Part shown: in pieces, positions 41,238 through 54,911 of the stretch
Layout: the number at the start of each line of letters is the position of its first letter
Numbering within the stretch: the first letter of the stretch is position 1
Assembly (NCBI GenBank): GCA_947623655.1
Contig: CANQHG010000010.1
Coordinates: forward strand, 1 to 54,911
Reading direction: 5' to 3'
From: an uncultured Clostridia bacterium
Lineage (GTDB): Bacteria; Bacillota; Clostridia; Christensenellales; Borkfalkiaceae
Length of the DNA stretch: 54,911 nt
Notes under the pieces: generated by a model
Databases searched by the model: none
Told to the model about the DNA's origin: nothing
Seen by the model: the letters and a program-made list of their open reading frames with translations, nothing else
Made by a program: the position numbers and the translations under genes

Positions 41238-41285
41238 CGCTTATCCTGAGCATACGCGAAGGATCTTATAAACCCGCGGAGTACA
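41238..41285. repeat. Half copy of the palindromic repeat
   Basis: GCTTATCCTGAGCATACGCG AAGGATCT region and AACCCGCGGAG match the left arm of the copies at 52.0-54.9 kb. The right arm is missing. Confidence 0.65.
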
Positions 41286-46312: not shown

Positions 46313-48205
46313 ATGAAAGCAATGGGAAAAGTCGCATCCTCGGTCGCGGCGATCGCTCTCTCCGCCGCCCTCATCGCAGGTTCGACGTTCGCTCTGTTTT
46401 CAAGCAAGGCCGATGTCAATATCGCAATTACATCAGGCAAGGTAGATGTCAAATCTACGGCCGAGCTCACAAGTGTGTATTCGGCACTGTGGAGCGATGA
46501 CGACAACGACTACATTAAAGACAACAAGACCGTCACGGAGAATGTCGGAACTTTCTCCAACGGCGGCACGGCTACATATGCGGGCGACACGCTCACGATC
46601 GAAAACATCTCCCCCGGCGACGGCGTGGAACTCACGATCAAGACCGAAAACACAAGCACGATCGCGATCAAGTATCAGACGGTCGTCACCTACAGCGGCA
46701 CAGAGGGGGACGAGGGCACCGCGCTCTATCGCGCCCTCAACATCACCGTCAAGGGCGAGGACGGGATGGAAAACATCAGTTCCGATCGTTCTACGGCCTC
46801 TTCCGAATGGACGACGGTGACGGAGCCGAACGGCAAAATAAAAGACGTGGCGGTCGACATCGAACTCCCCATCGATGCGGGCAACACTCTTCAGGGCAAG
46901 AAATGCAGCCTTGTGGTCGGCATCTACGCCGTACAGGCGAACGGCCACGACAACACCAATCAAGACGTCTATTTCGTCAATGCCGCTTCCGACCTCAACG
47001 AGGTCGTTCACTTGATCGAGGAGAACGGCACCCTCGCTCTTGCCGAGGAAGTGACGATCGATGAAACAAATAAGTTCACCATCCCCGAGGGCAGGGATAT
47101 CACTTTCGACGTCAACGGCAAAAAGATGAATGTTGTGAAGAACGCTGCAGAGGGGCAAGGGTTTATCGTCGAGAGCGGTAGCTCTTTCACTGTCACCAAC
47201 AGTGCTGAAGAAGGCTCCTTTAATCTCACGGCCAGTGCTGAGGCTGAGAATGCAGGCAAACGGGATGCCGGGAACTATACTCTGCGCGTGGAGAACGACA
47301 GCGCACTTGAGTTTAAAGACGTAAATGTAAATATCAGCGGAAACAGTGGCGGCGATTTCGTCGGATATGTCAAGGGAACAATGAATGCCGACAAGGATAC
47401 CGTCATCGAGATCAAAGGTGAAAAAGATAATCTTACCCGCGGATTCAACGTGCGCGGTGGCGGTGAAGTAAACTTGAACGGAGCAACTGTGGAGTCTGAA
47501 GGAAGCACAACACAGTTCGTTGTCGGATTGGGCACCGACGAAGTAGAAGGTACTCTCAATCTGAATGCCGGGACGGAGATCATCAGTCAAAACTGTTCCT
47601 ATGCGATTAACACCCTTGAGGCTTATCCGGGCGGCACGATCAACATCCACGAAGGCGCAAAGGTAACTTTGCAAGGTGATTTGTCCAATAATGATCCGAA
47701 AAGCCAAAAGGAGCAAACCGCTACGGCGGTTTCGGTTATCGGTGCGGGCAATGTGAACATGGACGGCGGCGAAATCGTCCTTGCCGCAAAGAATGGTTGG
47801 GCGTATGCCTTTTCCGCTATGAACAACAATTTCTACGACCCCGAAGTGCAAGGAGGGGAAAAGAGTGTGGGCATCTACCTTGATGCACACATCGTGCTGA
47901 GCGGAACAGCAAAGGTCACCGCAAACAATCAGGTCAATGCTTTGTTTGGTATGCAGAAGAACGGCAGACAAGGGTACACCTACGATGAAGGAGGAAACTT
48001 GACGGCCAATTACAAGGAAGCAGTATTTACCGAAGAGCCAACACTGATAATCAAAGCCACCGTTGTTATAACAATCAATGGCGTGGAAATCAACAAAAAA
48101 GATATTAAATTCGGTTTGAAGCAAGATGATGAATTTGGCCGCGAACTTGGCAATTATACCCCTGACGCTATCCAAGATGAGCGTGCGATTTCACAAGAAC
48201 CGTAA
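46313..48205 (+). CDS. SipW-dependent-type secreted beta-rich surface protein
   Basis: A 630-residue secreted protein. The N-terminus has the SipW-type signal seen in TasA/CalY proteins: a hydrophobic stretch (VAAIALSAALIAGSTFALFS, about 9-28) followed directly by SKADVNIAITSGKVDVKS. A TasA/CalY-like beta domain (about 30-210) continues to VGIYAVQANG. The rest (about 220-600) consists of short repeats with NINMDGG/VNLNGATVE/TLNLNAGTEI patterns, typical of a right-handed beta-helix as in adhesins or autotransporters. This suggests an extracellular matrix or adhesion protein. No sipW signal peptidase or tasA operon is adjacent. AAGGAGG precedes the start. Confidence 0.82.
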   Translation: MKAMGKVASSVAAIALSAALIAGSTFALFSSKADVNIAITSGKVDVKSTAELTSVYSALWSDDDNDYIKDNKTVTENVGTFSNGGTATYAGDTLTIENISPGDGVELTIKTENTSTIAIKYQTVVTYSGTEGDEGTALYRALNITVKGEDGMENISSDRSTASSEWTTVTEPNGKIKDVAVDIELPIDAGNTLQGKKCSLVVGIYAVQANGHDNTNQDVYFVNAASDLNEVVHLIEENGTLALAEEVTIDETNKFTIPEGRDITFDVNGKKMNVVKNAAEGQGFIVESGSSFTVTNSAEEGSFNLTASAEAENAGKRDAGNYTLRVENDSALEFKDVNVNISGNSGGDFVGYVKGTMNADKDTVIEIKGEKDNLTRGFNVRGGGEVNLNGATVESEGSTTQFVVGLGTDEVEGTLNLNAGTEIISQNCSYAINTLEAYPGGTINIHEGAKVTLQGDLSNNDPKSQKEQTATAVSVIGAGNVNMDGGEIVLAAKNGWAYAFSAMNNNFYDPEVQGGEKSVGIYLDAHIVLSGTAKVTANNQVNALFGMQKNGRQGYTYDEGGNLTANYKEAVFTEEPTLIIKATVVITINGVEINKKDIKFGLKQDDEFGRELGNYTPDAIQDERAISQEP

Positions 48206-51940: not shown

Positions 51941-52040
51941 AGCGGGGCATGTGCGACAACGGAACGCGCACGGTGCGCCGCCGTGTGCTCATCCTGAGCC
52001 AATCGCTCAACCTGCTCCGCCCTTTGCCCCGCCGTGCTCA

Positions 52041-52436
52041 TCCGGCCCCGCCGTGCTCATCCTGAGCGCAAGCGAAGGATCTCATAAACCCACGGAGTAA
52101 CTATGCCTTATACCTACATTATGACAAACAAGTACAATACGGTACTGTATGTTGGTGTGACGAACGATATCCGTCGCCGATACTTTGAGCATTTGTTTAA
52201 GATCAATGACGGTTTTACAAAAAAGTACAACCTCGACAAATTGGTTTATTATGAATGTTTTGAGCACAAAAACGATGCAATAGCTCGCGAAAAATCATTA
52301 AAAGGGAAAAAGCGCGAAAAGAAGATAGCATTGATAAAAGAAATTAATCCTGAGTGGAAAAATCTGATGGAAGAGGACGATTGACGGACTTCGTTCGAGG
52401 GGATTCTTCGGGGGCTACGCCCCCTCAGAATGAGCG
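52041..52436. mobile_element. Palindromic repeat element carrying a GIY-YIG nuclease gene
   Basis: The left arm (52056-52097, CTCATCCTGAGCGCAAGCG ... CACGGAG) and right arm (52386-52436, GACTTCGTTCG ... CCCCTCAGAATGAGCGG) are the two halves of the short repeats that follow. In those repeats only CCT lies between the halves; here 288 bases with the nuclease gene occupy that position. The arms are imperfect inverted repeats (GCTCATYCTGAG, GAAGRATC). Confidence 0.7.
52103..52384 (+). CDS. GIY-YIG domain endonuclease-like protein
   Basis: A 93-residue single-domain nuclease of the UPF0213/COG2827 type. The GIY-YIG-equivalent motifs are YTYIMTN (residues 3-9) and LYVGVTNDIRRRYFEH, including the catalytic Tyr, Arg and His region. 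The metal-binding Glu is in YYECF or REKSLKG, as in the family (LVYYE...AIAREKSLKGKKREKK). The gene is clearly AT-richer than its neighbours, a sign of foreign origin. It lies exactly at the centre of a palindromic repeat. Such domains cut DNA in UvrC and in homing endonucleases. Its neighbour uvrB is probably coincidental. No ribosome site is obvious beyond GGAG 6 bases before the ATG, provided by the repeat. Confidence 0.9.
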   Translation: MPYTYIMTNKYNTVLYVGVTNDIRRRYFEHLFKINDGFTKKYNLDKLVYYECFEHKNDAIAREKSLKGKKREKKIALIKEINPEWKNLMEEDD

Positions 52437-52676
52437 GTTGTGCTCATCTGGCCCCGCCGTGCTCATCCTGAGCGCAAGCGAAGGATCTCATAAACCCACG
52501 GAGCCTGACTTCGTATGAGGGGATTCTTCGGGGGCTACGCCCCCTCAGAATGAGCGGTTGTGCTCATCCGGCCTCGCCGTGCTCATCCTGAGCGTAAGCG
52601 AAGGATCTCATAAACCCACGGAGCCTGACTTTGTATGAGGGGATTCTTCGGTCGCTACGCTTTCTCAGAATGAGCG
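52437..52676. repeat. Tandem pair of short palindromic repeats (120-bp period)
   Basis: Two near-identical 120-base units (52437-52556 and 52557-52676). Each has the left arm CTCATCCTGAGCG...GAAGGATCTCAT, the centre CACGGAGCCTGACTT and the right arm GGGGATTCTTCGG...CTCAGAATGAGCGG. The units differ at a handful of bases. The start codon of uvrB is 10 bases after the last unit. Confidence 0.85.
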
Positions 52677-54648: not shown

Positions 54649-54911
54649 GGGGGAATGGGGGCAACGAATCCCAAATACGTCATCCTGAGCGTAAGCGAAG
54701 GATCTCATAAACCCACGGAGCCTGACTTCGATCGAGGGGATTCTTCGGGGGCTACGCCCCCTCAGAATGAGCGTATGTGCCCCCTCAGAATGAGCGGTTG
54801 TGCTCATCCGGCCCCGCCCGCTCATCCTGAGCGCAAGCGAAGGATCTCATAAACCCACGGAGCCTGACTTCGATCGAGGGGATTCTTCGGGGGCTACGCC
54901 CCCTCAGAATG
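54649..54911. repeat. Short palindromic repeats after uvrB, running off the window
   Basis: A full short copy (54679-54773) with ATCGAGGGGATTC in its right arm, then a partial right end and a spacer. A second copy (54819-54911) is cut by the window edge. Reading frames here are repeat shadows. Confidence 0.85.

Follow-up and report, generated by a model that had tools for sequence, protein, structure and literature searches.

A GIY-YIG nuclease gene between REP-like hairpin arms as a candidate mobilising system for CGTC-tagged palindromic repeats

Within the 54,911-nt stretch of an uncultured Clostridia bacterium analysed here (hereafter the window), a short GIY-YIG nuclease gene is enclosed by the left and right half of a palindromic repeat, which also occurs without the gene elsewhere in the genome. 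By analogy, the best reading appears to be a REPtron-like element in which a GIY-YIG nuclease takes the part of the RAYT, and the window element is probably the gene-bearing member of a REP-type mobile repeat family, the gene-less relatives of which would be served in trans by the nuclease. We also slightly favour the wider proposal that this single-domain GIY-YIG subfamily is the missing mobilising enzyme of CGTC-tagged REPs across bacteria, in a system that would dispense with a transposase and stand parallel to, and independent of, REP/RAYT.

The gene encodes a single-domain protein of 93 aa, for which a Pfam search detected the GIY-YIG domain only and revealed no HUH tyrosine transposase in the element. 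Conserved residues and the active site are intact, and the predicted structure (pLDDT 91.8) had GIY-YIG folds as structural neighbours, including Slx1 and I-TevI. GIY-YIG nucleases are known from repair, restriction, and intron homing. A typical homing endonuclease, intron-borne or free-standing with an extra DNA-binding domain, was considered for the window gene and rejected, since the 93 residues form a single domain and the gene is located between uvrB and another ORF. As the earlier note had stated, the gene is AT-rich, with a G+C content of 0.36 compared to 0.54 for the window. The source genome revealed two GIY-YIG matches, namely this gene and a 628-aa frame, which we read as UvrC judging by its length. 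Elsewhere in the window, the ORF at 46313–48205 has an N-terminus resembling that of a TasA/camelysin-type secreted protein.

The short, gene-less copies of the repeat measure about 92 bp, and their 3-nt centre CCT corresponds to 289 nt in the gene copy, so that the gene indeed stands in place of CCT between two half-arms, as first noticed from the sequence alone (Table 1). Four short copies were located within the last 2.5 kb of the window, and the gene copy is part of an array, a 25-nt spacer (3 mismatches) being located ahead of both the gene copy and the next short copy. At least 53 matches to the repeat were found in the 1.66-Mb genome, a lower bound given that 40 of the 50 first-look candidates were scored, compared to one gene of this GIY-YIG family. 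Given this number of matches in 1.66 Mb, finding a half-copy within 10 nt of each gene end, with order and orientation also agreeing, goes far beyond what chance would produce.

Table 1. Gene, half-arms, and gene-less repeat copies, given as positions of the window
Feature	Position	Strand	Basis
GIY-YIG nuclease gene, 93 aa	52103..52384	+	ORF list; Pfam PF01541, E 4e-15; conserved residues; pLDDT 91.8
Left half-arm of gene copy (hairpin 52056–52083 and inner segment)	52055..52097	+	43/43 identical to left half of short copy 52461–52552
Right half-arm of gene copy (inner segment and hairpin; stem continues to ~52435)	52387..52432	+	44/46 identical to right half of short copy 52461–52552
Gene-less short copy, halves joined by CCT	52461..52552	+	Reference for half-arm comparison
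Gene-less short copy	52581..52672	+	92% identical
Gene-less short copy	54678..54769	+	93% identical
Gene-less short copy, contig end	54820..54911	+	97% identical
25-nt spacer ahead of gene copy	52031..52055	+	Again, with 3 mismatches, ahead of next short copy, ~52437–52461 (locus L033)
Solitary left half-arm elsewhere in the window	41239..41281	+	86% identical over query 1–43

In regard to its structure, the repeat is a heterodimer of two palindromes. In the left arm, a 5-base stem starting with AT is combined with an inner stem and a tandem GA/GA mismatch, and this plan recurs in the right arm with other stem bases (ATCCT/AGGAT on the left, ATTCT/AGAAT on the right). Each arm forms its own small hairpin, the left one weakly (z −0.94), and the best fold of a short copy consists of local hairpins that are only modestly better than shuffled sequences (z −2.04). 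One large cruciform, a fold that the earlier note had considered for the outer arms, is thus not the best fold of a short copy.

A homologue (E 1e-10) was detected in 33 of 151 genomes of the genus, in 31 of them as a single copy. Searching with a profile of the family (A1) returned its members at E values below 1e-20 and, separated by a gap in score, 34 other matches at 1e-15 to 1e-7, which we take to be UPF0213/YhbQ proteins. Based on these values, the assignment of the window family itself as UPF0213/YhbQ-like was tried and rejected. Most flanks of family members in the genus consist of REP-like hairpins, the spelling of which is specific to the genome. When the core GAG...CGA was fixed and the stem bases were left free, the resulting pattern matched in 63 of the 151 genomes, its reversed control in none of them. 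The free bases were complementary in 81 of 91 distinct matches (10 stem types, 60 loci) where 1.4 were expected; thus, the hairpin is conserved, its letters are not.

For a wider comparison among bacteria, 30 loci of relatives were combined with 80 named-genome loci, the best of 570, and with 16 of the 18 loci from a viral collection. With a strict detector ([GC]TCAT followed by at least five stem pairs, within 150 nt and facing the gene), 44 of 126 loci had arms on both sides of the gene (10/30 of the relatives, 27/80 of the named, and 7/16 of the viral loci), 34 on one side, and 48 on neither; even the loosest detector left 19 of the 126 loci without any arm. Homologues without flanking arms, the outcome that would speak against the earlier note's proposal, were thus observed in part. 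A wider detector, spanning 200 nt with a slightly wider head and run without control, revealed arms on both sides at 32 and on at least one side at 55 of the 80 named loci, the 32 spanning nine phyla with 17 in Bacteroidota. The orientation of the arms around the gene is not uniform: the nearest upstream arm faces the gene at 55 of the 80 loci having one, the nearest downstream arm at 50 of 82, and in some alphaproteobacterial copies the heads point inward. Median flank similarity was higher in direct (35) than in inverted orientation (29) because of the arrays.

Such counts might also arise passively if repeats and gene both piled up in permissive intergenic DNA with no functional tie, and the repeat arrays away from the gene as well as the many family loci without arms would fit such an explanation. 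However, the strict detector found both-side arms at none of 401 other ORFs of the same loci and no arm on either side of the GIY-YIG paralogues in the genus (0/33; 33 of 34 retrieved), and passive proximity accounts neither for the exact replacement of CCT by the gene nor for the co-occurrence of gene and repeats described below. Because of the two control sets, it is already disfavoured, and we regard it as very improbable.

The gene is also carried by plasmids, with 12 records in a plasmid collection, and all four that were retrieved have REP-like arms on both sides; three Rhizobiaceae plasmid loci (S. meliloti, Shinella, and Rhizobium) display textbook CGTC arms at both gene ends. On the plasmid of Rhizobium sp. 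CIAT894 (L411, ~1492–1776), the sequence outside the arms was by eye also an inverted repeat, so that the palindrome extends past the REP arms. On Planktothrix agardhii plasmid NZ_LR882964.1 (L410, 1489–1773), the GIY-YIG element has, according to the annotation, an MmeI-type restriction-modification gene on one side and the DISARM gene drmA on the other.

Forty genomes behind named loci harbor one to five family members each, and members within one genome often differ in the spelling of their arms; among the within-genome pairs compared, two were near-identical (95% and 92%). One alphaproteobacterial genome (G373) carries ten members, all of them diverged (L424–L433). In three multi-copy genomes, the strict detector found both arms at 3 of 20 loci. 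In Seonamhaeicola and Flaviramulus (L095 and L124), inspection by eye placed the gene upstream of seemingly the same ORF, with the same left arm, whereas the right arms differ, as though a swap of one arm had taken place.

Gene and repeats also tend to occur in the same genomes. In the genus, at least three pattern matches were present in 29 of 29 gene-positive compared to 22 of 62 gene-negative genomes. For 88 of these genomes, a uvrB tree implied 18 changes of the gene and 8 of the repeats. A tree-aware test with seven independent pairs on supported branches had no power and gave no significant result; the co-occurrence in the genus is clade-structured and suggestive only. For a second set, the class to which Bradyrhizobium agreste belongs (Alphaproteobacteria) was sampled evenly, giving 190 genomes. 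There, 23 of the 54 genomes with the gene contained a CGTC-type pattern, compared to 5 of the 136 without it (Fisher 1.6e-10, the even draw being the only correction for phylogeny), and among genomes of at least 3 Mb a hand tally gave 18 of 33 compared to 3 of 47. This pattern covers one spelling group only, which may be why 31 gene-positive genomes had no match. The co-occurrence by genome that the earlier note had suggested checking was thus observed in both sets. Conversely, 22 of 62 and 5 of 136 gene-free genomes have repeats, which implies that these can last or appear in its absence, provided that the gene was not overlooked in draft assemblies.

Filled and empty forms of an orthologous site, a criterion for transposable elements, were observed at two sites in relatives of Hanstruepera. 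The first is located between genes that we read from their ORFs as a sensor-kinase-like protein and a LytTR-like regulator: genomes G169 and G174 possess arm-gene-arm, G194 arm-spacer-arm without the gene, and G193 and G195 nothing. At the second, G193 harbors arm-gene-arm as part of an array, on either side of which the same 24 nt from the end of the upstream ORF are repeated without mismatch, and G169 arm-gene-arm with a diverged flanking repeat; G195 revealed a lone palindrome between similar repeats, G194 a remnant, and G174 neither arms nor gene. Of the empty sites and target duplications that the earlier note had proposed to look for, the former were found; a candidate for the latter, a clean flanking direct repeat with an empty relative, was seen at one site only (24 nt, G193), flanking repeats at other loci being mixed with arm arrays and left out of the count. 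In Hanstruepera flava itself, two paralogues of 76% identity, each at its own locus, have a block in common that ends with the right arm.

The first of these sites, gene-less in one genome and gene-bearing in two, would also suit a homing endonuclease that invades existing REP pairs by cutting them and is copied in during repair, the arms then being target, not vehicle. GIY-YIG nucleases include homing enzymes, and I-TevI is among the structural neighbours. A homing gene should fill its targets, though, whereas one gene faces at least 53 repeat matches in its own genome; moreover, the 93 residues leave no extra DNA-binding domain, and a relative at the second site is empty of arms as well as of the gene. 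The copy-number asymmetry speaks against homing, which seems quite improbable to us.

The history of the window copy itself was followed beside uvrB. In four of 12 genomes inspected (the source genome, G010, G032, and G052), the gene and its arms occupy the interval from the same upstream ORF to uvrB. In six, this interval is short, plain, and gene-free, and two are less clear, with a repeat-like hairpin and no gene in G043 and other sequence in G026. Among the four gene copies, dN/dS was 0.02–0.09, similar to uvrB and with dS often above 1, which indicates purifying selection. This copy looks old, inherited in place, and maintained, and by analogy it would resemble a single-copy RAYT gene that has been retained for long rather than a recent insertion. 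In G010 (L035, L163), the left-arm stems read GCT/AGC where the sister genomes have CCT/AGG, a change found on both stem sides and in several copies, i.e., the gene copy and the array.

This locus would suit the serious rival, namely a domesticated nuclease whose task would be the trimming or resolution of REP hairpins, in the service of the host or of stable repeats, and which moves nothing now, the repeats having spread otherwise or earlier. The shared locus in four sister genomes, the low dN/dS, the low copy number, the likeness of the predicted structure to Slx1, and the repeats kept in gene-free genomes would all agree with domestication, which alone leaves unexplained why the gene lies between arms, why gene-bearing and empty forms of sites exist, and why paralogues each have their own arms; overall, we consider it unlikely. 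The autonomous element postulated in the earlier note is partly supported: the recurrent gene-arm unit in several phyla, the gene-bearing, gene-less, and empty forms of one site, the co-occurrence of gene and repeats, and the layout parallel to REP/RAYT speak for it; the window copy looks old and in place.

If the element is mobile as we favour, the arms would form extruded hairpins, for which replication, with its single-stranded DNA, would offer the easiest occasion. The nuclease, with its Slx1-like predicted fold, would recognise a hairpin via the unpaired GTC head and ATC(CA) tail and cut at the hairpin or at a target. Through host replication and repair, a copy of the hairpin unit would then enter the cut, and a direct repeat of some two dozen bases would remain. 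We infer both cutting and movement of the arms by the enzyme, and likewise the recognition of the hairpin and the strand involved. In each genome, its gene would be kept to one or a few copies and the hairpins would multiply, as with REP/RAYT, and gene-less arm pairs and single arms would be non-autonomous relatives, served in trans by the nuclease. Since the gene lies between the arms and relatives in several phyla are often packaged likewise, the enzyme is a good candidate for the spreader of these common repeats.

CGTC-tagged palindromes are widespread, and the question of their enzyme was left open in the defining paper (PMC3733652). A testable candidate can now be named: a tractable nuclease of about 93 aa, for which the candidate substrates are exactly known, many genomes provide matched pairs of enzyme and repeat, and empty sites exist. 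In the literature searched, we found no link between a GIY-YIG nuclease and these REPs. If true, a second hairpin-repeat system would stand beside the RAYTs, and the functions of GIY-YIG nucleases in repair, restriction, and intron homing would be joined by another one.

Compared to known GIY-YIG proteins, homing endonucleases of the I-TevI type have a similar catalytic fold, but the window protein lacks their extra DNA-binding domain and its gene is flanked by repeat arms. Slx1, a structure-specific nuclease with a fold like that predicted here, differs as a eukaryotic repair enzyme that has a partner protein and no tie to repeats. The presumed UPF0213/YhbQ-like proteins are set apart by profile score and by the arms.

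In sequence, the arms appear to lie in or near the superfamily of CGTC-tagged REPs published in 2013 (PMC3733652), so that the repeats can no longer be called undescribed. As defined in that paper, these have a CGTC, TGTC, or CCTC head, a stem of 8–9 bp starting with AT, a loop of 4–5 nt, and a CCA tail; Neisseria dRS3 and Rickettsia RPE-6/RPE-4 are equated with them, and S. meliloti is among the carriers. The arms of our family, of the general form GTCAT-stem...ATCC, share the GTC head, the stem starting with AT, the short loop, the CCA tail, and the inverted dimers. The fit is letter for letter in S. meliloti and Flavobacteriaceae and loose in the window. The head fits in S. meliloti, Shinella, Rhizobium, and most arms of the wider detector, whereas the window arms have a GCTC head before a stem starting with AT. 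Stem, loop, and tail fit in the Hanstruepera arm and, by eye, in S. meliloti; the window arm displays a 5-bp stem, a 2×2 mismatch, an inner stem, and a CTC tail. According to the same paper, whose authors looked at transposase genes, CGTC-tagged REPs "apparently lack a dedicated transposase", whereas here a GIY-YIG gene lies between the arms.

With the REPtron (REP plus RAYT/TnpAREP), as described in PMC3733652, the window element shares a low-copy enzyme gene between inverted hairpins and many gene-less repeats (one gene, at least 53 matches), and the parallel to REP/RAYT drawn from the sequence alone stands, though 48 of 126 family loci had no arms around the gene by the strict detector. Several enzyme-REP pairs can share one genome in REPtrons, according to the same source. 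The differences concern the enzyme, a GIY-YIG nuclease in place of the HUH tyrosine transposase, without which the window element is by definition not a REPtron, and the hairpins, which are of the CGTC and not of the GTAG type.
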